DNA of 40,322 nucleotides from Pseudomonadota bacterium (GTDB lineage Bacteria > Pseudomonadota > Gammaproteobacteria > Xanthomonadales > Xanthomonadaceae): assembly GCA_963205415.1 (NCBI GenBank), contig CAUJJS010000241.1, forward strand, positions 1 to 40,322, written 5' to 3'. The translations under genes and the position numbers were made by a program. The first letter of the stretch is position 1. Each line of letters begins with the position of its first letter. This document shows, piece after piece, positions 1-40,322 of the stretch. A model generated the notes under the pieces. It was not told the origin of the DNA and searched no databases. It saw only the letters and a list, made by a program, of their open reading frames with translations.

Positions 1-7
1 GTCCGCC

Positions 8-67
8 AGCGAACAATTCGGTGCAGCCGAAACCGCTACGCGGTTCGGCTGACCTCAGGCGTTAGCC
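8..67 (+). other. attC site, second copy of attC_C, immediately upstream of cassette A
   Basis: nt 1-65 are identical to 890-954 and then continue into cassette A (GTTAGCC) instead of cassette D (GTTAGAT). Confidence 0.88.
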
Positions 68-178
68 CTCATCAGGTGAAGGTGCTCCACCCTTCCTCGG
101 GGTCGTACTCGGCGCCGTCTTCCTGCTCTGGCTGGAACCACCCTAGGTCGATCATCTTCTGCACATCTTCCGGCGTCA
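61..178 (+). repeat. 118-nt direct repeat, left copy
   Basis: Identical to 40205-40322 by direct comparison. Confidence 0.97.
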
Positions 179-365
179 GCGGGAGATTGGTCGGGTAGGC
201 GTAGAACTGGTCATGTTCTGCGCCAATGTGGTAGCCGTCCCCGTCCTTGTAGTACGGTTGCAGCGTCTTCAAGCCTTCGATGAAGTTACTCAGTTTCATG
301 CCATATTTCTCCGTGTAGTACGATTGCAGCGTCTTCAAGCCTTCGATGAAGTTACTCAGTTTCAT
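72..365 (-). CDS. Cassette A: small acidic hypothetical protein with duplicated N-terminus
   Basis: 97-aa ORF; GGAG upstream of ATG; tandem MKLSNFIEGLKTLQ repeats; acidic, Trp-rich C-terminus. Confidence 0.8.
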   Translation of the reverse strand: MKLSNFIEGLKTLQSYYTEKYGMKLSNFIEGLKTLQPYYKDGDGYHIGAEHDQFYAYPTNLPLTPEDVQKMIDLGWFQPEQEDGAEYDPEEGWSTFT

Positions 366-380
366 GCCATATTTCTCCGT
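249..380. repeat. 66-bp in-frame tandem duplication (249-314 and 315-380)
   Basis: Two copies differing at one position (g257/a323); each copy carries the SD-like GGAG and an ATG (on - strand). Confidence 0.95.
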
Positions 381-390
381 AGTAAGCGCC

Positions 391-449
391 GGGCTAACTC
401 TGCATTCCAGCGGATGCGCTACGCGCCCCGCTGAATTTTGGTGTTAGAG
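391..449 (+). other. attC of cassette A
   Basis: GGGCTAAC...CCAGCGG..GCGCTACGCGC..CCGCTG...GTTAGAG; left core complements cassette A start GTTAGCCC. Confidence 0.85.
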
Positions 450-641
450 GGCATAGAACCTGTTTTTGCTTACAGGCTCGATTGTCATTGCTCCATATCG
501 GTACTCTCGGTCCCGGCGAGCACTCGAGTCCATCAAGCCCTCGACTTCGTCGCGCTTCATTGGCCGCTTGAACCTGTATTTTTCCAGCCGATACCAGCCG
601 AAGTGGATCGTCCAGTAGCGAGTCGGTTCCTTTACCTTCAT
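444..641 (-). CDS. Cassette B: small hypothetical protein (MKVKEPTRYWTIHFGWYRLEKYRF...)
   Basis: ATG at 641 preceded by AGAGGG (SD, formed by the attC core); stop TAA is the core TTA itself. Confidence 0.7.
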   Translation of the reverse strand: MKVKEPTRYWTIHFGWYRLEKYRFKRPMKRDEVEGLMDSSARRDREYRYGAMTIEPVSKNRFYAL

Positions 642-650
642 CGAAATGCC

Positions 651-705
651 CTCTAACAGTTCATTCAAGCCGACGCCTGCGCGCGGCTTAATTCAGGGGT
701 TCGCT
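651..705 (+). other. attC of cassette B
   Basis: CTCTAACAGTTCATTCAAGCCGACGCCTGCGCGCGGCTTAATTCAGGGGTTCGCT; ATGCCCTCTAAC complements cassette B start GTTAGAGGGCAT (12/12). Confidence 0.9.
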
Positions 706-875
706 GGCTTCGCGCGCACTTCGTAGACATCGCATGCTGCGACCCGAGCTTCATCGGTCTGATAGAAGAACCTGCCGCGCGCATACTCCTCGTTACGCAG
801 GACGTAACGCACAACACCAACTCGCATCAGCGGGCCAGCCCTGTACAAAATCCAGTCGCCTTCGTTTGCTTCCAT
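693..875 (-). CDS. Cassette C: small hypothetical protein (MEANEGDWILYRAGPLMRVGVVRYVLRNEEYARGRFFYQ...)
   Basis: ATG 875 preceded by CAGGAGA; ORF runs through the core into attC_B for its stop. Confidence 0.75.
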   Translation of the reverse strand: MEANEGDWILYRAGPLMRVGVVRYVLRNEEYARGRFFYQTDEARVAACDVYEVRAKPANP

Positions 876-896
876 CTCGTTCTCCTGTAGTCCGCC

Positions 897-956
897 AGCG
901 AACAATTCGGTGCAGCCGAAACCGCTACGCGGTTCGGCTGACCTCAGGCGTTAGAT
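897..956 (+). other. attC of cassette C
   Basis: AGCGAACAATTCGGTGCAGCCGAAACC...GGTTCGGCTGACCTCAGGCGTTAGAT; GCCAGCGAAC complements cassette C start GTTCGCTGGC (10/10). Confidence 0.9.
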
Positions 957-1178
957 GGGATGAATCCCTTGATCCGCCGACCAATAGCCAACGTCTGCAA
1001 TAACTCCAAGCTGATCGGCTCGGCGCTCGCCAGCGACAAGCCGAGCCGCAGTGTCGACACAGCTTCCGCACCCGCAGAACTCGCCGCCGCAGATGCACAT
1101 TTCATCCCCCGCATGCCTTGCTTCCGAGTACGGCGCGATCCGTAAGCAGTCATTGCAAAGAACAACGTGCTCGCTCAT
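951..1178 (-). CDS. Cassette D: Cys-rich small protein, possible metal-binding (MSEHVVLCNDCLRIAPYSEARHAGDEMCICGGEFCGCGSC...)
   Basis: ATG 1178 preceded by GGGAG; CxxC and CxCGGxFCGCGSC; stop TAA is the core TTA. Confidence 0.75.
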   Translation of the reverse strand: MSEHVVLCNDCLRIAPYSEARHAGDEMCICGGEFCGCGSCVDTAARLVAGERRADQLGVIADVGYWSADQGIHPI

Positions 1179-1189
1179 AAACGACTCCC

Positions 1190-1278
1190 ATCTAACAATT
1201 CGTTCAAGCCGAGCCCGCTTCGCGGTCTCGGGCACAACCGGTTCGCGCGGGCGGGCCGGCTTAACTCAGCCGTTATGC
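1190..1278 (+). other. attC of cassette D
   Basis: ATCTAACAATTCGTTCAAGCCGAGCCC...CGGCTTAACTCAGCCGTTATGC; TCCCATCTAAC complements cassette D start GTTAGATGGGA (11/11). Confidence 0.92.
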
Positions 1279-1532
1279 TGCAGAAACCACAAGAATCGCG
1301 GCCCTTGGCCTTTCACATGCCAAGGCTTCCGCTCCACCTTTCCGCGCATGTGTAGGTTCTTCACGTGCGCGCAGGTGTTGTGCTTCGTCCAACCGGTTTC
1401 GGCGGCAATTTCCGCTGTCGTCGCGGGCCCATCGGCGAGGATGGCCAGCACACGGCTTGCTTTGCTGTCTGGGTGCATCTGTTGCATGGCTCTCGTTCTC
1501 CGTGACCGCTCGGCGGTGTTCATGCCGCGCAC
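1266..1532 (-). CDS. HTH/winged-helix-like small protein, C-terminus altered by cassette insertion
   Basis: ILADGPATTAEIAAETGWTKHNTCAHVKNLHMRGKVER is wHTH-like; last codons HNG* are encoded by the attC_D core and arm. Confidence 0.75.
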   Translation of the reverse strand: MRGMNTAERSRRTRAMQQMHPDSKASRVLAILADGPATTAEIAAETGWTKHNTCAHVKNLHMRGKVERKPWHVKGQGPRFLWFLQHNG

Positions 1533-3136
1533 CTCAGCGCCTGGGTGCAGTCCAGATTTGCGGCTGCGATGGCTGCAAGCGGCGGTGGGCTGACGCTGTT
1601 GCCGACCATGCGCACGGCGCGGGTGGCATTGATTGGCCTGCCATCGGCGGTGCGGTGGAAGATGTAGCCTGGCGGGAATCCTTGGGCTTTGTAGAGCTCG
1701 CTGGGGCGCAGCATGCGCAGGCCGATGTCCACGATGACATGCGGCACGCCGTGGACTTGGACTGTGACGAGTGCGAGGCGGTCGCGGGTGGTGATGGTGT
1801 CGACGGGGTGGGTGATGTCCAGTGCTTGGCCGTTGCCGTAGTAGTTGACGAGGAATGCGGCAACGCGGAGCGCGTTGGATTCTGTTTCCGGGCTCAAGGT
1901 GTACGTGGCGATGGCATGGTGCTCGCCGCCAGCAGAGAGAGTGCGCACGGGCGCATCGATGGCGCTGCCGACGTTATCGCCCCGCATCGTGACCATGTGC
2001 GCCGCCACCAGGCGCTGTTGACTGCCGGTTTGGGTGATGGTGGATAGCGGAGCGTCTGCGCCGCGTGGGGGTGCTGGGTTGCCACTGGGGCCGCCGCCGT
2101 TGGCTTGCTCGATAAATGCGCTGACCAGCGCGAAGTGTCCGCCTTTGACTTGGGCGCACTGTGTGCGTAGCGGTTCGCTTGCTGGCCACGTCGCGCCGCG
2201 CGAGGCGTTGGCAAACTCGGTGATGAATGAGGCATTGCCGGGCACTATGAAGGGCTCGGCTGCGTCGAGGACGTAGCGTTTGATGCCGCGCGCGATGCGC
2301 CGCAATGTGGCTTCGGCGAGGGGCTTGCGGCGGTCGAAGATTGACGGGCAGGGGGCTGACCATGCGATGCAGTCGGCGGCGGTGACGAAGGGTTGGGCGC
2401 AGCCCGGGCCGTGCGTTGGCTTCGGCCATTGGATCGGTTCGCCATCGCAGCGGGCAATCAGGAAAAGGCGCGTGCGGCTGGTGCCTGCGCCATAGTCGCA
2501 GGCGCGCAGTTTGCGCCACTGGACGGTGTAGCCGAGGCGGCGCAGCGCAGCGACAAAGTGCTGCCATGTTCGGCCTGCGTGGCGCTTGTCGGGCACCAGG
2601 AATTGGTTGTCGATCGGCACGCGCTCGCCGGGTGCGGATACGCTGCCATCCAGGCGAAGGGCGCGGCGGGTTGCGCGGTCTCGCTTGGCCACGAGCGGGC
2701 CCCATTTCAGGATCTGCTCGACGTTTTCCAGGCTGATGATGCGCGGACGCACGGCGCCAGCCCACTTGAGCACGACCCACGACAGCGAGCGCGTGGCGCG
2801 GCTGCGTGGCTGGCCGCCCTTGGCTTGGCTGAAATGCGTGCAATCGGGCGACGCGTGCAGCCAGCCTACGGGCCTGCCGGCGCATTCGGTGCGCGGGTCT
2901 GCGGCCCATACGTCTTCGCACAGGTGCCGAGCCAGCGGGTGATTGGCGGCGTGCATGCCGATGGCCCAGGCATCGTGGTTGATGCAGATGTCGGGGTCTC
3001 GGCCGAGCGCTTGTCGGAGTGCTTCGCTTGCGCCGCCGCCGCCGGCGAAAAGATCGACAACGATTTCCCCGTGGCGCAGTTTGGATGCGCCGGTGGCGTG
3101 GAAGCCGAAGCCTTGCTGGCGGTTTCCATCAGCCAT
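1520..3136 (-). CDS. DNA (cytosine-5) methyltransferase
   Basis: VVDLFAGGGGASEA (motif I), ASPDCTHFSQAKGG (motif IV, PDC instead of PCQ), SLENVEQI (ENV motif), GNSVSPPPL (motif X); start chosen at MADGNRQQ, 8-nt overlap with upstream gene. Confidence 0.9.
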   Translation of the reverse strand: MADGNRQQGFGFHATGASKLRHGEIVVDLFAGGGGASEALRQALGRDPDICINHDAWAIGMHAANHPLARHLCEDVWAADPRTECAGRPVGWLHASPDCTHFSQAKGGQPRSRATRSLSWVVLKWAGAVRPRIISLENVEQILKWGPLVAKRDRATRRALRLDGSVSAPGERVPIDNQFLVPDKRHAGRTWQHFVAALRRLGYTVQWRKLRACDYGAGTSRTRLFLIARCDGEPIQWPKPTHGPGCAQPFVTAADCIAWSAPCPSIFDRRKPLAEATLRRIARGIKRYVLDAAEPFIVPGNASFITEFANASRGATWPASEPLRTQCAQVKGGHFALVSAFIEQANGGGPSGNPAPPRGADAPLSTITQTGSQQRLVAAHMVTMRGDNVGSAIDAPVRTLSAGGEHHAIATYTLSPETESNALRVAAFLVNYYGNGQALDITHPVDTITTRDRLALVTVQVHGVPHVIVDIGLRMLRPSELYKAQGFPPGYIFHRTADGRPINATRAVRMVGNSVSPPPLAAIAAANLDCTQALRCAA

Positions 3137-3584
3137 TGGCGGACACCTTGCGCGGCCTTGCGCGCGCCCATGAGCGGCCTGCCCAAATGTCGCGCACGGT
3201 GTTTGCCGACACGCCGTAGCGCATGGCGATGGTGCGTGCCGTGGTTGCGACGGCGGTTGCCCGGGCGGCGCGGATTTCTGCCACATCGGCGGGCAGCAGC
3301 TTGGTGGCGCCTCGGCGTCGGCAGCTGGTTGCGTAGTGATCGCAGTCCAGGTGATGCGGGTTGACGCATCCGACCACGCCGCAGGTGGGATAGACGACAG
3401 CGCCTTCCGGGATGGGGCCGAACAGCTGCGACCAGATCCAGCGGTGCGCGAGCATGTCGCGCCCTCCGAAGGTGATCTTTCCGTGGCCGAGTTCGGTTGT
3501 CGAGCCGAGCCAGAGCCAGCAGTCGTCTGGCGACTTGCCGATCTGGACGCGCTGGGTGATGGGTTGGCCGGGGTGGGGCATGGC
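3129..3584 (-). CDS. HNH endonuclease-like protein with C-terminal HTH-like segment
   Basis: CWLWLG..GHGKITFGGRDMLAHRWIW...CGVVGCVNPHHL; ISAMRYGVSANTVRDIWAGRSW-like HTH; start estimated at MPHPGQ. Confidence 0.75.
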   Translation of the reverse strand, partial: AMPHPGQPITQRVQIGKSPDDCWLWLGSTTELGHGKITFGGRDMLAHRWIWSQLFGPIPEGAVVYPTCGVVGCVNPHHLDCDHYATSCRRRGATKLLPADVAEIRAARATAVATTARTIAMRYGVSANTVRDIWAGRSWARARPRKVSANG

Positions 3585-5880: not shown

Positions 5881-6134
5881 TGGCGGCGCTCGATGTGGGC
5901 GATGACGGCGTTGGCGACGGGCAGGCCGGCGCTGGGGATCCAGAACCTGGCCTTGCCGACGTGCAGCTCGTTGCCGCGAAGGTTCACCACCGCTGCATTG
6001 GCGATTGCCGTGGCGATGGGGTCGCCGTTGACTTTGGCGCGACGGCCTAGGCGGACGATGAGATCTTCGCCTGCGATGCGAAAACTGAGATCAAGGCCTC
6101 CGGGTAGGGGGATGGTGGCGGGTACGGCTGGCAT
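5877..6134 (-). CDS. First gene of leftward early operon, hypothetical
   Basis: MPAVPATIPLPGGLDLSFRIAGEDLIVRLGRRAKVNGD; CGGAG SD; just downstream of predicted PL. Confidence 0.7.
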   Translation of the reverse strand: MPAVPATIPLPGGLDLSFRIAGEDLIVRLGRRAKVNGDPIATAIANAAVVNLRGNELHVGKARFWIPSAGLPVANAVIAHIERRQ

Positions 6135-6157
6135 GTGGACTCCGGGTTGGTTGGCGG

Positions 6158-6199
6158 AGTGAACCACAGGTTCATGCGCGCGTCAACCGCAGGTTTACG
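6158..6199 (-). promoter_or_regulatory. Predicted PL with two operators (6158-6176, 6181-6199)
   Basis: AGTGAACC-ACA-GGTTCATG and CGTCAACC-GCA-GGTTTACG, centres 23 bp apart; on - strand TTGACG-N17-TTCACT. Confidence 0.7.
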
Positions 6200-6268
6200 A
6201 TGCTGTGCGCAAAGCCAGTGAGTTCGTGCAAGAATCGGCGCTCTACCAAGCCAAAGGAGGGTTGTGTG

Positions 6269-9140: not shown

Positions 9141-11546
9141 ATGCGCGTCGCGGTCAACTACGATGACGTGCTCGATCAGCTGCGGTCTGCTGATCTCCTC
9201 GTCGAGGACATCGAGACCGGGCGCACCGTTCGCTGCCCGATCAAAGGGGATCGAGAAAAGCGCGGCTGGTACCGGTTGCACGATCTGCCGCTGCCGAGCG
9301 GCGACGTGCTCATTGTTGGCACCTTCGGTATCTGGCGCGGCGATGATCCTGGCACGCTCAAGGTCGACCTAAAGAAGCGCGACTCCGCGTTGACCGATGA
9401 CCAGCGCGATGCGCTGCGTCGTCGCCTGGCCGATGATCGAAAGCGAGAGAAAGCGCAGCGCGAACGGCGTGCCGAACGCGCGGCCGAACGTGCGGCAGCG
9501 GCCTGGTTGCGATACGAACCGAGCGGCGATTGTGAGTACCTGCGCAGGAAGCGGGTCGCAGACTATGGGTTGCGATTCACGTCGCATGGCGCCGCCGTGG
9601 TTCCGTTGCTTGACGGCGCCGGCAAGATCCACGGCCTGCAGTTCCTGCGTACACCGGCCCAGGCCGAAACCGCCAAACGGCCGGTCAAGGAATTCTGGCC
9701 CGCAGGCTTGGCGAAGCTAGGTCACTTCCACCTTCTAGGCTCGCCGTCCTGGATCGTGCTGGTTGCCGAGGGCTACGCCACCGCAGCGACGCTGCACATG
9801 ACCACCGGACATCCGGTGGCCGTGGCCTTCGACGCGGGCAACCTGGTCCATGTGGCCAGGGCCCTGCGCGCACGTTACCCGCGCATCCGCGTGCTGATCT
9901 GCGCCGATGACGACATCCTGCAGAAGTGTCGCGAGTGCCAGACGCGCCTGGTACTCACCGAGCACCCGGAAACCTGTCCGAACTGCGGCAAGCCGCATCG
10001 TGCGGAGAATGCAGGCGTCGCCGGCGCCAGCGCGGCCGCGCTCGAGGTCAATGGTGCCTGGCTTGCGCCAAAGTTCAGCGACGCGATCGAAGCGAAGCGT
10101 CGCGCGCAGTTCATCGAACACGGCACCAAGCTGACCGACTTCAACGATCTGCAGGCGCAGGAAGGCATCCATGCCGTGCGCGAACAGGTCGCCGCCCACC
10201 TCTCGGCACTGCGCTGGGCCATGCCTATGCAAAACGCCGACACAACCGGAACGGGGGATGGGGGCGCGCAGTTGCGCCCGATTGAAAGCATCGACGATCT
10301 GCTTGCGCGCTACGTGCTGATCTACGCGCAAGGCTCGATGGTGTTTGATCGCGATGAGCACATCCTGCTGTCGATCAGCGACATGCGCGACGTCTGCATC
10401 AACCGCTACATTCACCGAGCTTGGTCAGAATCGCCACGTCGCGCGATCGAGCGTATCGATTCCGTCGACTTCGATCCGTCGTGCACCAAACCCGGAATCA
10501 CCTGCAACCTATGGGCTGGCTGGCCAACGAAACCGAAACCTGGCCGCTGCGAAAAGCTGCTCGAACTTCTGCGCCACATGTGCGCTGCGGAATCCGGCAA
10601 AAGCGCGGAGGATCTCTACCAATGGGTTCTGCGCTGGCTGGCGTACCCGCTGCAACACCCGGGCGCAAAACTCAAAAGCACCATCGTCGTGCACGGCCCC
10701 CAAGGCACCGGCAAAAACATGTTCTTTGAAGCCTACATGGCGATCTACGGCCGCTATGGCCGCATGCTCGACCAGGATGCGCTGGAGGATAAGTTCAACG
10801 ATTGGGCATCTCGCAAACTGTTCCTGATCGCCGACGAAGTGGTCGCCCGTGCCGAGCTCTACAAGCTCAAGAACAAACTCAAAACCCTGATCACCGGCGC
10901 GAAGATCCGCATCAACCCGAAGAACATGGCGGCATACGAGGAAGACAATCACGTCAACCTCGTGTTCCTCTCCAACGAGGAAATGCCCGTCGTCCTCGAA
11001 GAAGATGACCGCAGGCATGCGGTGATCTGGACACCGCGGTCTCTCAGCCAAGCCTTCTACCAGGAAGTGCTTGACGAGATCCGCGCCGGCGGATCCGAAG
11101 CACTGCACGACTACCTGCTGAACCTCGACCTCGGCGACTTCACCGAAGGCACGCGCCCGCCAACCACCAGCGCGAAGGATCGGCTCGTCGCGCTCGGCGT
11201 GGACTCTCCCGTGGGCTTCTACGATGCGCTCATCCTGGACGACATCATCGGCCTCAAGTTCGCCTCGGCGCTCAGTGCCGACTGGTACGAAGCCTACAAG
11301 GTCTGGTGCCACCGCACCGGCGCCCGCGCGGCACCGCTGCCCAAATTCGTCAACAAGCTCGAACGCAAACGCGGCGTGAGCTGCGAGCGCAAGCGATACC
11401 GCATCGAACAGACCACGCACGGGCCCCACGGCATGCTGCTGCTCTCCGGCCTACCCGACACGTCGAATCAATCGGAAGCCGACGCGCTCGGCGAGTGCGT
11501 CGTCCGGATGCGAACGCAGCTCGAAGACTACCGGGGGCGAACATGA
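9141..11546 (+). CDS. TOPRIM primase fused to helicase (DUF5906-like)
   Basis: VAEGYATAATLH, VLICADDD (TOPRIM), VHGPQGTGKNMF (Walker A), LFLIADEV (Walker B), VNLVFLSNEEMPV. Confidence 0.9.
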   Translation: MRVAVNYDDVLDQLRSADLLVEDIETGRTVRCPIKGDREKRGWYRLHDLPLPSGDVLIVGTFGIWRGDDPGTLKVDLKKRDSALTDDQRDALRRRLADDRKREKAQRERRAERAAERAAAAWLRYEPSGDCEYLRRKRVADYGLRFTSHGAAVVPLLDGAGKIHGLQFLRTPAQAETAKRPVKEFWPAGLAKLGHFHLLGSPSWIVLVAEGYATAATLHMTTGHPVAVAFDAGNLVHVARALRARYPRIRVLICADDDILQKCRECQTRLVLTEHPETCPNCGKPHRAENAGVAGASAAALEVNGAWLAPKFSDAIEAKRRAQFIEHGTKLTDFNDLQAQEGIHAVREQVAAHLSALRWAMPMQNADTTGTGDGGAQLRPIESIDDLLARYVLIYAQGSMVFDRDEHILLSISDMRDVCINRYIHRAWSESPRRAIERIDSVDFDPSCTKPGITCNLWAGWPTKPKPGRCEKLLELLRHMCAAESGKSAEDLYQWVLRWLAYPLQHPGAKLKSTIVVHGPQGTGKNMFFEAYMAIYGRYGRMLDQDALEDKFNDWASRKLFLIADEVVARAELYKLKNKLKTLITGAKIRINPKNMAAYEEDNHVNLVFLSNEEMPVVLEEDDRRHAVIWTPRSLSQAFYQEVLDEIRAGGSEALHDYLLNLDLGDFTEGTRPPTTSAKDRLVALGVDSPVGFYDALILDDIIGLKFASALSADWYEAYKVWCHRTGARAAPLPKFVNKLERKRGVSCERKRYRIEQTTHGPHGMLLLSGLPDTSNQSEADALGECVVRMRTQLEDYRGRT

Positions 11547-12701: not shown

Positions 12702-14633
12702 ATGACCCTGCTCGCGCTCCCCCGCATCGCTGAGGTTCTTTCGCGCAAGCTCATGCCGCGCCGGCCGCCCTCGGTCAGCGCATGGGCCGATGCCGAACGG
12801 GTCCTCTCGACAAAGGGGAGCGCGAAGCCGGGTCGCTGGCGCACTGATTCGAATCCGCCGCTGCGCGAACCGATGGACTGCATGAGCGCGCGCAGCGGCG
12901 TGCGTGATGTCGTTTTGATGTTTCCCATTCAGGATGGCAAGACGGAGGTCGCGCTCAACACCGTCGGCTACTGCATGGATCAGCACCCCGGCCCGGTGAT
13001 GGTGTGCCTGCCGGGTGAGGTCTCTCTCGTCAAGTGGGTAGCGCAGAAGCTCTCGCCGATGCTCGAAGAAACGCCGGCGGTGCGGCGCGCGCTCACCAGC
13101 GTGGCATCGCGCGACGCGGCGAACACGCGCACGCTGAAGGAGTTCGATGGCGGCCAGCTCTACATCGAACACGCCGGATCACCGTCGCGCTTGAAGTCAA
13201 CCAGCGTGCGCACGCTCATCGTCGACGAGCTCGACGAATTCGCCGGCAACTTCGTCGGTGGTGACGACCCGGTCGATATGCTCGATGGCCGAACCTCGGC
13301 ATTCCCCTCCACATACAAGCGCCTCTACATCAGCACGCCGCAGATGCGCGGCACCAGCCGCATCGAGCGCAAGTTCCTGGAAGGCGACCAGCGCCGCTAC
13401 TACGTGCCCTGTCCGCACTGTGCGCACGAGCAGCCGCTGGAATGGAAGGGCTTGATGTGGACGCCGGACGCATCGCATTGCTGGTACGCCTGCCGAGAAT
13501 GCGGCGCGGTGATCGACGAACACCACAAGACAGCGATGATCAACGCCGGCCGCTGGGTGGCGGAAAACCCGAATGCGCGCGAAGGCGTGCGCAGCTACAC
13601 CTTGAACTGTCTCTACTATCCGTTCGGCCTCGGCCCGCGTTGGCTCGACCTGGTGCGCATGTGGCTTGCCGCGCAGAACGATCCGTCGCGCCTGAAAACC
13701 TTCATCAACGACCGCCTGGCCGAACCTTTCGAAGACCCCGCCATGCGCGCAGTCAAGCACAACGTGCTGCGCGATCGCGGTGAACCCTACCGCCTGCGCA
13801 CCGCACCGCTCGGCGTGCTCGCCTGCACCGCCGGCGTCGACACTCAGGACAACCGCCTGGCCGTGCACGTCGTCGGCTGGGGGCGCGGCATGCGCGCGTG
13901 GACCCTCGACTACGTCGAACTGCCCGGCGATCCCGCCGAAGACCTTGTGTGGATCTCCCTGGTCGAGTTGCTCACCCGGCCCATCGAACACGAGTGCGGT
14001 GCCCTCATCCGACCCGAGGCCACCGCCATCGACGCCGGCGGCCATCGCACCGAGGCTGTGAAGTCATTCTGCCGACCGCGCGTCGGTGGCCATCCGCTGC
14101 GTCGCGTGATGCCCATCTTCGGCGCAGTTCCAAACAACGCCCCCGTGCTGTCGAAGGGCAAGCTGCAGGACATCAACTGGCGCGGCCAATACGACAAGAA
14201 CGGCGTGACGATCTTTCACGTCGGCACGGTCGGCATCAAGCATCACCTGTACAGCCTGATCGCCGCCGACGATGGCAAGCCGGTCGAGTCGCGCATGATC
14301 CATGTCAGCGACGAACTGCCGCCCGAGTTCTTCGCTGGGCTGGTCTCCGAAACCTACGATCCGAACCGCAATCGCTTCATCAAGCGCAACGGCGTGCGCA
14401 ACGAACCGCTCGACACCTGGGACTACGCCTACGCCGCCGCGCACCACCCGGAGCTGCGCCTGCACCGGCGCAGCAAGGCGGATTGGGATGCGGCAGAGGC
14501 GCGGTTGCTTGCGGCAGTGGGTGCGCCGGTGGTGATGCCCGTGGTTGGCGAGTTGCCGCCGCCTGTTTCACATGGAACATCGCCGCAGACCCCGAAAGGC
14601 TCCCCTCGGGCGGGTTGGAAGCGCACCTGGTGA
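12702..14633 (+). CDS. Terminase large subunit, GpA family
   Basis: DVVLMFPIQDGKTEVALN, VRTLIVDELDEF, LYISTPQMRGTSRIERKFLEGDQRRYYVPCPHC, CTAGVDTQDNRLAVHVVGWGRGM. Confidence 0.93.
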   Translation: MTLLALPRIAEVLSRKLMPRRPPSVSAWADAERVLSTKGSAKPGRWRTDSNPPLREPMDCMSARSGVRDVVLMFPIQDGKTEVALNTVGYCMDQHPGPVMVCLPGEVSLVKWVAQKLSPMLEETPAVRRALTSVASRDAANTRTLKEFDGGQLYIEHAGSPSRLKSTSVRTLIVDELDEFAGNFVGGDDPVDMLDGRTSAFPSTYKRLYISTPQMRGTSRIERKFLEGDQRRYYVPCPHCAHEQPLEWKGLMWTPDASHCWYACRECGAVIDEHHKTAMINAGRWVAENPNAREGVRSYTLNCLYYPFGLGPRWLDLVRMWLAAQNDPSRLKTFINDRLAEPFEDPAMRAVKHNVLRDRGEPYRLRTAPLGVLACTAGVDTQDNRLAVHVVGWGRGMRAWTLDYVELPGDPAEDLVWISLVELLTRPIEHECGALIRPEATAIDAGGHRTEAVKSFCRPRVGGHPLRRVMPIFGAVPNNAPVLSKGKLQDINWRGQYDKNGVTIFHVGTVGIKHHLYSLIAADDGKPVESRMIHVSDELPPEFFAGLVSETYDPNRNRFIKRNGVRNEPLDTWDYAYAAAHHPELRLHRRSKADWDAAEARLLAAVGAPVVMPVVGELPPPVSHGTSPQTPKGSPRAGWKRTW

Positions 14634-36162: not shown

Positions 36163-36960
36163 ATGCCAGCAGCACCCATCATCCCTTGGTTGGGCGGCAA
36201 GCGCCGCCTGGCCGACCGCCTGTTCGCCCTGTTCCAACCGCACGAGTGCTACCTTGAAGCCTTCGCCGGCGGCGCCGCGCTGTTCTTCCTCCGTGCCGTG
36301 CCAGCCAAGGTGGAGATCCTCAACGACGCCAACGGCGAGCTGGTCAACCTGTATCGCGTGGTGCAGCACCACCTTGAGGAGTTCGTGCGCCAGTTCAAAT
36401 GGGCGCTATCGAGCCGACAGGTGTTCGAGTGGCTGCAGGACACCCCGCCGGCGACGCTGACAGACATCCAGCGCGCCGCGCGGCTGTACTACCTGCAGCA
36501 CCTGGCCTTCGGCGGCAAGGTATCCGGGCAGAGCTTCGGCACCGCAACCACCGCGCCAACCGTCAACCTGCTGCGCATTGAGGAATCACTCAGCGCCGCA
36601 CACCTGCGGCTCGCCGGCGTCACGATCGAGCACCTGCGCTGGCGCGAATGCGTCGATCGGTACGATCGCCAGCACACGCTGCACTACCTCGACCCGCCGT
36701 ACTGGCAAACCGAAGGCTACGGCTTGCCCTGGGAATTCTCCGAATACGAGGCCATGGCCGATTTCGCGCGCCAAGCGAAAGGCAAGGTGATGATCTCGAT
36801 CAACGACCACCCCGATATCCGCCGCGTGTTCGATGGCCTCCACCTCGAGCGCACCGAACTGGCCTACACCGTCGCCAACGGCCGCAGCGAGCGCCCCGCG
36901 CCCACCGGCGAGCTGATCCTGTCGAACTGGGAGCCGGCCGCGTTGGGGCGGCTTTTGTAG
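36163..36960 (+). CDS. DNA adenine methylase, D12 class
   Basis: PIIPWLGGKRRLADRL (motif X), YLEAFAGGAALFF (motif I), YLDPPYW (DPPY, motif IV). Confidence 0.93.
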   Translation: MPAAPIIPWLGGKRRLADRLFALFQPHECYLEAFAGGAALFFLRAVPAKVEILNDANGELVNLYRVVQHHLEEFVRQFKWALSSRQVFEWLQDTPPATLTDIQRAARLYYLQHLAFGGKVSGQSFGTATTAPTVNLLRIEESLSAAHLRLAGVTIEHLRWRECVDRYDRQHTLHYLDPPYWQTEGYGLPWEFSEYEAMADFARQAKGKVMISINDHPDIRRVFDGLHLERTELAYTVANGRSERPAPTGELILSNWEPAALGRLL

Positions 36961-37316: not shown

Positions 37317-38918
37317 CTATGATGCGCGGCTCTGAGGTGGCGGGACAGGGATACGGAGCGGCGCTGTCAGATAGCGCACGTAGCCCGCCCCCGCTACCAA
37401 CGCTAGCTGACTTTTGTCGGCGACCGATGACGACGACGGCGAGGCCTCTATCCAGGTCTCGCCGTTTTCGTTTTTGACGGTGGCGGTTTCGCCTAGTACT
37501 TCGCGGAGGCATTCGCGGGCGGCTGGGATTTCGTCGGGGCGGGTGCCGAGGGTGGCGATGGCTTGCTGCCAGATCTCGCGCAGGCGAGGGATGATCGTTG
37601 CTGGTTGCAGTTGCTTGAGGGCTTCGAGGGCGCGCCTGGCTTCATCGACGGTGGCTTCGGCTGCGATGAGTTCGGCTTTGGTGCTGGGGGTGAGGATGCC
37701 TTCGCGGATGGCGCGCATGAGGTTGGCGTGTACGCGTTCTGCGGCGGCCAGGCGGACCTTGGCGCCGTCGATGTCTGGTGCGTGGCGCTTGAGTTCGTCG
37801 GCGACGGCGCGTTGTGCGGTTTGCCAGGCGGATTCGGATTCGAGTAGTCGGCGCACGCCGGCGAGTGCGGCCGATTCGAGTGTGCGCCGGTCGATGCGCA
37901 GGGTGCTCGGGCAGACGGCTGATCCGCGTTCCTTGTGCGCGCTGCAGCCGTAGCGGTAGCGGTCGACGATGACGAAGGCGGCGCCGCATTCGCAGCATCG
38001 GAGCACGCCGCTCAGGAGGTGCTTCATCGGTCGGCCGGCGTTGCGTTTGCCGGTGCTGGTGTTTCGATGCTGGCCTTTGACGCGCGCTTGGGCGCGTTGC
38101 CAGGTGTCGGTGTCGATGATGGCCAGGTCCGCGTTGTGGTGCACGATCCATTCCGACTGCGGGCGCTCCTGTCGGACGCGTCGGCCGGTGTCGGGGTGCT
38201 TGATCCAGTGGCTTCGGTTCCAGACTTGCTGCCCGGCATAGATGGGGTTGGCGAGGATGCCAATGCCGCGGCGTGCGTCGCCGAAGATGGCGCTGGCGCA
38301 CCAGGCGGTGCCGCGGGGTGAGCGCACGCGATCGGCGTTGAGCGTGGATGCGATTGTGCGTGCGCTGTGACCTTCGAGGTAGAGCGCGTAGATCCTACGC
38401 ACGATTGCCGCCTGCTCGGGATCGATGGCGCGTTCACCGACGCCGGTGATGCGGTAGCCGAATGGGAGGCCGCCGGCGCTGGCTCCAGCGAGCGCGCGGC
38501 CGGTGAGTCCGCGATGCGTCTTGTCGGCGAGGTCGTCCAGGTAAAGCTCCGACATGATGCCGCGCAGCCCGACGTCTGCCTTGTGTGACTTGCGAGCGGT
38601 GTCGACGCCATCGCTGACACCGATGAGACGCACACCGGCGAAGCGTAGGCGCTTCACTGCGGCGTTGACTTCGCCCATGTCGCGGGACAGGCGCGAAAGG
38701 TCATCAACCAGGATCACATCGAACTCGCCGGATTCTTTCAGCAATGTGCGGTAGCCGGGGCGGTCGTTGCGCGCGCCGCTCACTGCGGCGTCGGTGTAGA
38801 TCGTCGGTTTGGGCCACCCCTGCCGCGCGCAGTAGGCGCGGCAGTTGCGCAGCTGGTCGTCGAGCGAGGCCTCGCGCTGTGCGTCTGAGCTGTAGCGGGC
38901 GTAGGCGGCGGTGCGCAT
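37317..38918 (-). CDS. Large serine recombinase (phage integrase)
   Basis: AAYARYSSDAQREASLDDQL, VDDLSRLSRD, resolvase fold, recombinase domain LPFGYRI...IYAGQQVWNR, zinc ribbon CCECGAAFV. Confidence 0.93.
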   Translation of the reverse strand: MRTAAYARYSSDAQREASLDDQLRNCRAYCARQGWPKPTIYTDAAVSGARNDRPGYRTLLKESGEFDVILVDDLSRLSRDMGEVNAAVKRLRFAGVRLIGVSDGVDTARKSHKADVGLRGIMSELYLDDLADKTHRGLTGRALAGASAGGLPFGYRITGVGERAIDPEQAAIVRRIYALYLEGHSARTIASTLNADRVRSPRGTAWCASAIFGDARRGIGILANPIYAGQQVWNRSHWIKHPDTGRRVRQERPQSEWIVHHNADLAIIDTDTWQRAQARVKGQHRNTSTGKRNAGRPMKHLLSGVLRCCECGAAFVIVDRYRYGCSAHKERGSAVCPSTLRIDRRTLESAALAGVRRLLESESAWQTAQRAVADELKRHAPDIDGAKVRLAAAERVHANLMRAIREGILTPSTKAELIAAEATVDEARRALEALKQLQPATIIPRLREIWQQAIATLGTRPDEIPAARECLREVLGETATVKNENGETWIEASPSSSSVADKSQLALVAGAGYVRYLTAPLRIPVPPPQSRAS

Positions 38919-38928
38919 GGCGCGGAGC

Positions 38929-39099
38929 CTATGCGGCCTGCTGTGGCGGTTGCAACGGCACCCGCTCCGAGCGCAGTCGCTGATTTTCAAGCGCCGGCAC
39001 GGGTTTGGGTGTCAGATAATCGGCGACGATGGAGCGCGCCATCGCGGCGATCAGCGCCTGTAGGGCTGGGTTCACGGTGGCTGCGCCTGGGTTCTTCAT
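38929..39099 (-). CDS. Small hypothetical protein
   Basis: MKNPGAATVNPALQALIAAMARSIVADYLTPKP; ATGA overlap with upstream gene. Confidence 0.6.
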   Translation of the reverse strand: MKNPGAATVNPALQALIAAMARSIVADYLTPKPVPALENQRLRSERVPLQPPQQAA

Positions 39100-39593: not shown

Positions 39594-39868
39594 CTTCGTT
39601 CGTCCTCTACGTTCCGTCTCTGTTCTGGCCAGTCAAGCGCGGTTTTTCCTGCCCACTTTGTCAGCTTGTGGTGGATGATCGCGGCGGCTTTCTTGTTGCT
39701 CTTGTCCAGCGAAACGGAGAGCGCGATTTCCATGTCCGCAGCGCGGCAGGTTGCTTCGTGCAATGCGGCGCTGATTCCTTGCCTGGCGGCCTCGGCTACG
39801 AAAGCCGCGCTCTCTGGATCGGTTGCGACGTAAGCACGAACGAGTTGCAGGAATTGGTCGCGGGTCAT
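39590..39868 (-). CDS. Hypothetical early protein
   Basis: MTRDQFLQLVRAYVATDPESAAFVAEAARQGISAALHEATCRAADMEIALSVSLDKSNKKAAAIIHHKLTKWAGKTALDW. Confidence 0.7.
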   Translation of the reverse strand: MTRDQFLQLVRAYVATDPESAAFVAEAARQGISAALHEATCRAADMEIALSVSLDKSNKKAAAIIHHKLTKWAGKTALDWPEQRRNVEDERR

Positions 39869-40173
39869 GGGGTGGATGCTCTCTCGCTTGCGATGCGCGG
39901 CATGGATCTGCGCAGTCCGTCGAGGACGCGCGACCAGCCGATGCGGGCCTTCCACTCGCGCCCGTCGACGACGGCGCGGTAGGTGTCGATGCGGGTGGTT
40001 TTGTGCAGTTCGATTACGTGCGTCATGGGCTCTGCGCCGTCGAAGTCCTCGATGGTGATCCGGCGGCGCAGGTCTGGCGGTTGCCAGCGGGGTGGCCGCT
40101 GGTCGTCATCGGGGATTTCTTGCCGCGGCCGCCATTGGCTGCGAGCGGCGTACTTTTTGGTTCGGCGGTACAT
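39865..40173 (-). CDS. Hypothetical early protein, first phage operon gene downstream of the cassette insertion
   Basis: MYRRTKKYAARSQWRPRQEIPDDDQRPPRWQ...; SD-like AAGG overlaps the reconstructed TGA of the upstream gene (40184-40186). Confidence 0.7.
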   Translation of the reverse strand: MYRRTKKYAARSQWRPRQEIPDDDQRPPRWQPPDLRRRITIEDFDGAEPMTHVIELHKTTRIDTYRAVVDGREWKARIGWSRVLDGLRRSMPRIASERASTP

Positions 40174-40204: not shown

Positions 40205-40322
40205 GTTAGCCCTCATCAGGTGAAGGTGCTCCACCCTTCCTCGGGGTCGTACTCGGCGCCGTCTTCCTGCTCTGGCTGGAACCACCCTAGGTCGATCATC
40301 TTCTGCACATCTTCCGGCGTCA
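40205..40322 (+). repeat. 118-nt direct repeat, right copy (start of cassette A)
   Basis: Identical to 61-178; flank differs upstream (phage sequence here, attC upstream of 61). Confidence 0.97.

Follow-up and report, generated by a model that had tools for sequence, protein, structure and literature searches.

A Four-Cassette attC Array in a Temperate Siphophage, with Genes Directed against attC and a Second, Probably Recombined, Junction

How can one attC site possess two different right-hand neighbours in a single contig? The window analyzed here is a 40,322-nt stretch that comprises the whole of contig C241 of a MAG (3.0 Mb, 273 contigs, 85.5% complete). The initial annotation pointed out that nt 1–65 repeat the attC_C region (890–954) and lead into cassette A, whereas cassette A adjoins phage DNA at 40205. 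Both observations were verified: the first stretch is identical at 65/65 positions, and self-comparison of the contig gave 118/118 identity between nt 61–178 and 40205–40322, with no attC to the left of 40205. Neither of these identities can be ascribed to chance. The 118-nt self-overlap closes the contig into a 40,144-bp circle, for which only nt 1–60 are surplus. We read the circle as a complete temperate siphophage carrying a four-cassette CALIN, and the first 60 nt as a sign that the array also occurs in a second state within the population sampled, of which the joint was most likely made by an integron integrase (IntI); this reading is given a probability of roughly 0.65.

A Circular Phage Genome with Four Cassettes

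Genes for packaging, the head, the tail, replication, and an integrase lie together on the circle, a single replicon, which indicates a complete temperate siphophage. Its modules include a C5 methyltransferase, primase, terminase subunits, portal, major head/protease, tape measure, tail proteins, a second methyltransferase, and a large serine integrase. Related phages, whose primases are approximately 50–63% identical, occur in Xanthomonas, Stenotrophomonas, Pseudoxanthomonas, and Arenimonas, so that the phage host is probably a member of the family to which these genera belong. The phage core (20000–24000) gave no blastn match in INPHARED, and the HTH protein that borders the array had no relative in 299 genomes of the family or in the primase-bearing phages. 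The stop codon of this 88-aa HTH ORF is provided by attC_D.

The array extends from the phage G at 40205 to T1273, and each cassette was taken to start with the TT of a core site and to end with the G of the following one (Table 1). Five attC matches, namely four native sites and the extra copy at 8–67, were detected exclusively on the + strand with 54–75 bits by model R1, a strand-specific covariance model derived from 16 sites, three of which are from this array and owe their scores partly to this construction. Each site exhibits R''/R' cores, L''/L' stems, and the extra bulged base in L'', together with folding as ssDNA. Real cassettes require the left core to be complementary to the right R'', as expected for a circular form, and the own first core was complementary to the own R'' in 4/4 cassettes. 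With four native attC sites, where at least two define the class, and no intI nearby, this array in a phage is a CALIN. It does not constitute a complete integron, as IntI is lacking and the left edge consists of phage DNA without attI. No integron integrase above the cut-off was detected in the contig or in the MAG, which is 85.5% complete. An IntI above the curated cut-off was found in 43/60 relatives, including both same-genus genomes, and the enzymes of the latter could act in trans on the phage array. A blastn search with nt 1–1300 against INPHARED returned only four records, which matched on attC-like stretches and included class 1 integron cassettes in P1, and the Rfam search gave no match.

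Table 1. Coordinates of junctions, cassettes, ORFs, attC sites (limits from R'' to R'), and phage genes.
Feature	Coordinates	Strand	Evidence
Alternative junction: final 7 nt of the body of cassette C and attC_C to the crossover G, joined to A and not D	1..61	+	1–65 = 890–954; model match 8–67, 74.8 bits
Cassette A (attC orientation)	62..443	+	complementary cores GTTAGCC (61) / GGCTAAC (392)
ORF of cassette A, 97 aa	72..365	− (antiparallel to attC)	gene call with Shine-Dalgarno (SD); viral relatives; third-position bias
attC_A	392..449	+	model R1 56.4 bits; ssDNA fold z −2.9
Cassette B	444..699	+	complementary cores GTTAGAG/CTCTAAC
ORF of cassette B, 65 aa	444–641	−	gene call with SD
attC_B	651..705	+	model R1 53.6 bits
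Cassette C	700..950	+	complementary cores GTTCGCT/AGCGAAC
ORF of cassette C, 60 aa, stop codon inside neighbouring attC	693–875	−	gene call with SD AGGAG
attC_C, followed on the right by D (951) and by A (62)	897..956	+	model R1 75.4 bits; fold z −3.3
Cassette D	951..1272	+	complementary cores GTTAGAT/ATCTAAC
Likely ORF of cassette D, 75 aa, weaker call	951–1178	−	ORF list; caller favoured a low-scoring 61-aa + ORF
attC_D, long type (89 nt)	1190..1278	+	model R1 57.5 bits; 80–89% identical to attC in viral contigs L181, L165, L166
Phage ORF, 88 aa, MarR-like HTH, right edge of array	1266..1532	−	Pfam MarR_2 3.8e-7; translation
Phage C5 DNA methyltransferase, same leftward operon as HTH ORF	1520..3286	−	phrog_116 4e-90
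Phage DNA primase	9141..11546	+	phrog_2249 1e-159
Terminase large subunit	12702..14633	+	phrog_15 7e-204
Large serine integrase, distal end of array-bearing operon	37317..38990	−	phrog_95 3.6e-85; Resolvase, Recombinase, Zn-ribbon domains
Phage gene, left edge of array	39865..40173	−	gene call
Phage–cassette A junction, core GTTAG, attG-like; circular overlap with 61–178	40205..40322	+	118/118 identity; no attC to the left

At the left edge, the phage G at 40205 runs straight into cassette A (G|TTAG) with neither attC nor attI on the phage side. As read from the sequence, the array was presumably inserted at a G|TT (attG-like) site of the leftward operon, with the small HTH gene on one side and, on the other, the genes that lead to the serine integrase. 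The predicted site without the array is TTTGTTG|TTATGCTGCAG; an exact-pattern scan of IMG/VR gave no match, and the searches with the HTH protein in the 299 genomes and the primase-bearing phages yielded no empty relative. Cassette insertion at non-classical attG sites has been described by Loot et al. (2024), as cited in PMC12901181, and in PMC12444791. The bare G|TT joint resembles such insertions, but it lies here in a phage genome, and its empty site was not found in IMG/VR.

Two known systems are close to this array. Qi et al. (2023; PMC9892861) described integrons and CALINs in bacteriophage genomes, and IntI1 recombined 5/6 of the phage attC sites tested; the present array shares with these CALINs the canonical attC structure and the lack of intI. 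The sedentary chromosomal integrons of Xanthomonadales type (PMC12444791 for Xanthomonas; our stretches L144–L149) have attC of the same type, length, and core sites, and relatives of the MAG carry IntI. They differ in that their genes run parallel to attC in 179/183 cases, while the phage array is antiparallel and is devoid of intI and attI.

The Junction between attC_C and Cassette A

Because the attC_C|A joint coincides with the IntI core site G^TTAG, site-specific cassette recombination is its best reading, and an integron integrase is its most likely maker. Such an enzyme would be supplied in trans by the host, and would join attC_C to the boundary before A. The initial annotation suggested an excised A-B-C circle or an A-B-C-A-B-C-D array. 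The junction at the IntI crossover fits either product but does not single them out, since the same 178 nt would be obtained from A re-inserted behind C or from C lying next to A in a different phage or host array of the sample.

The last of these products leads to a separate explanation, in which attC_C|A belongs to another replicon in the sample, such as a second phage or a host integron in which A follows C, and became fused to the contig end. Cassettes are indeed common to different phages, once within one metagenome, and other phages carry relatives of cassette A. Against this, none of the cassettes A–D, and hence neither A nor C, is present on any other contig of the MAG, an exact-pattern scan located the start of cassette A in no IMG/VR contig, and a search of IMG/VR for relatives of the cassette C protein gave none. 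We consider this origin unlikely, though still to be reckoned with.

The sequence of nt 1–60 itself is short. Its link to cassette C amounts to only approximately 14 nt (GTCCGCC + AGCGAAC), since viral contig L168 has a near-identical attC core attached to another cassette body. Furthermore, the contig-end overlaps are unequal (65 vs 118 nt) and fit no single k-mer size, which indicates that one or both ends are no branch node of a de Bruijn graph and may be based on very few reads. A chimeric read or a contig-end extension via the shared GTTAG and the palindromic attC would leave phage|A-B-C-D|phage as the only real arrangement. The surplus of just 60 nt at a contig end, the overlaps that disagree with one k-mer size, and the frequent breaking of contigs in such arrays (L082, L181, L185, L189) are consistent with this artefact, as is the 5-nt GTTAG common to most cassette edges, which could alternatively have guided template switching in library preparation. 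An artefact of assembly or library is nevertheless judged improbable, as the join lies at the point cleaved by IntI and not within the homologous attC stem, and as the two-neighbour pattern is clean in L082/L189, which have a 127-nt common start.

These two viral contigs are both derived from IMG metagenome 3300048586. They are identical over nt 1–127, containing a cassette part and attC, and diverge at the core (GTTA|TACGG vs GTTA|GACCG) into different cassettes. This is the pattern expected from a k=127 graph, and can be taken as a direct sign of one attC with two neighbours. Cassettes common to phage contigs were also observed for L168/L190 (96% over 374 nt), L157/L193 (95% over 294 nt), and L158/L192 (89% over 420 nt), and a 236-nt cassette is present twice in the L179 array (9363–9598 and 9883–10118; 100% identical) with GTT cores on both sides. 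Cassette movement among phages in general thus appears well supported by the L082/L189 split, the inter-phage cassettes, and the L179 duplicate, while attC_C|A itself is a probable instance.

A further way to generate attC_C|A is tandem amplification of A-B-C through homologous recombination independent of IntI, from which the same junction would arise. At the two places where it would have to break, phage|A and attC_C|D, only GTTAG is common to both and there is no homology to recombine, making this route highly improbable. Recombination by IntI is our preferred reading. It is supported by the exact joins and the circularity, the five attC matches, the complete phage modules, the L082/L189 precedent, and the cassettes common to phage contigs, as well as by the L179 duplicate, the presence of IntI in 43 of the 60 relatives, and the relatives of cassette A in viral attC arrays. 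Counted against it are the lack of IntI in the MAG, the C-specific support of approximately 14 nt, and the unequal end overlaps. The array heterogeneity proposed in the initial annotation is therefore retained in part: the second junction looks authentic and is matched by similar heterogeneity in L082/L189 and L179, but an artefact is possible. The cassettes are probably still being reshuffled. No report of population heterogeneity of phage arrays was found in the available part of PMC9892861. Phages with attC are known, and an attC with two neighbours makes natural array movement countable from existing reads.

Gene Direction in Phage and Host Arrays

The cassette ORFs of the window lie on the − strand and the attC sites on the + strand, so that the genes share the direction of the adjacent phage operon and oppose that of attC. 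An ORF parallel to attC, with attC at its 3' end, is a typical, although not strictly defining, feature of a cassette; here, the ORFs run the other way. The orientation was calibrated on the aadA/class 1 cassettes in P1, for which attC + and CDS + agree. A wrong reading direction of attC was ruled out by the agreement of the strand-specific model, the L'' bulge, and this aadA control. Spurious − strand ORFs were ruled out for A by its viral relatives and third-position bias, and for the class by Pfam/PHROG matches; this exclusion is weaker for D. The conserved attC end (TCAG..GTTA, or TAAC..CTGA on the gene strand) gives stop codons in reversed cassettes; the ORF of cassette C terminates there (693–699), and so does the phage HTH gene (1266–1272).

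Viral contigs were gathered by the attC pattern together with primase and integrase relatives. A further four contigs from IMG/VR, which carried an attC_C-like 3' motif, were dropped because the model did not match them. In the viral arrays, 84 antiparallel versus 29 parallel cassette genes were counted with the self-trained gene caller, and 98 versus 18 with the mixed model, leaving out L182/L184, which are host-integron-like with 12 parallel genes, and noting that each single call on a short GC-rich ORF is weak. The host integrons of the same family gave 4 antiparallel versus 179 parallel genes in six stretches (L144–L149) from four genomes. The strongest reversed arrays (parallel:antiparallel) were L176 (0:12), L171 (0:9), L192 (0:8), L157 (0:6), and L179 (0:6); arrays with reversed genes are also found in L082, L121, L123, L142, L175, L178, and L189. 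Parallel or mixed arrays were observed in L160, L161, L187, and L174, and L181 and L123 flip between the two models. As the contigs were chosen by a Xanthomonadales-type pattern, the scope of this reversal is attC of that type. The flanks of the viral arrays are phage genes, such as those of DNA polymerase, helicase, RecE, tail fibre, terminase, and Mu-like transposase. For some of 92 antiparallel ORFs, matches were obtained to phage gp49/66 (7e-32), N6/N4, Dam, and C5 methyltransferases, HNH nucleases, and many PHROGs.

The same polarity is found in the published phage CALIN MW202573 (L199, 1860–3186), in which the annotated genes are on + and three attC model matches on −. The available part of PMC9892861 calls a uniform cassette direction typical; it does not mention the reversal for MW202573, nor does it report genes systematically antiparallel to attC, in which the present arrays differ from its CALINs. 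We found no report of systematic reversal in phage arrays. The reversed gene polarity across phages appears to be new, while phage CALINs themselves were already known.

Reversed Polarity, a Possible Phage Cassette Pool, and Cargo

With genes antiparallel to attC, the recombinogenic bottom strand of attC becomes the coding, non-template strand. In V. cholerae, attC bottom strands on the lagging template (inverted orientation) strongly raise cassette excision (PMC11023631). In the phage, the bottom strand would also be the lagging template where the operon and replication run together, which would favour folding; we propose that transcription makes an antiparallel array easy to fold and recombine. 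A founder array in reversed polarity would accept only reversed cassettes that are expressed, keeping the phage and host pools apart, because a cassette of either kind would land antisense in the array of the other. This leads us to a tentative model, which we regard as possible but less likely than not: phages may own an all-reversed cassette pool, in which transcription of the phage operon exposes the attC strand and couples shuffling by host IntI to phage expression, with attC_C|A as a snapshot of this process. If true, systematic reversal would add a new rule to integron biology and hint at a pool owned by phages, here including DNA methyltransferases, an HNH endonuclease, and many small proteins without known function; it also suggests a reason for which free mixing of phage and bacterial cassettes may not take place.

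The cassette A protein has viral relatives with 80, 67, 67, and 40% amino acid identity, and attC model matches on the opposite strand flank the gene in the first three of them. Compared with L204, 18 of 30 differences are at the third codon position, the most of any position. The cassette A ORF contains a 66-nt in-frame tandem duplication (244–309/310–375); the duplicated region at 244–375 spans the ribosome-binding site and the start codon, and is absent in the relatives L204 and L205. In L204, the relative with 80% identity (5936–6250) adjoins a DNA methylase gene, and the array-distal end meets DNA without detectable attC, like phage|A of the window. The distant relative in L207 (~5960–6250; 40%) is flanked by repeated leaders TCAGTAGGTTGATGG; no attC match was obtained there, and this is perhaps a different modular organisation. 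The phage of the window carries two DNA methyltransferases outside its array (1520–3286 and 36163–36960), and DNA methyltransferases are the commonest recognisable cargo of the viral cassettes too.
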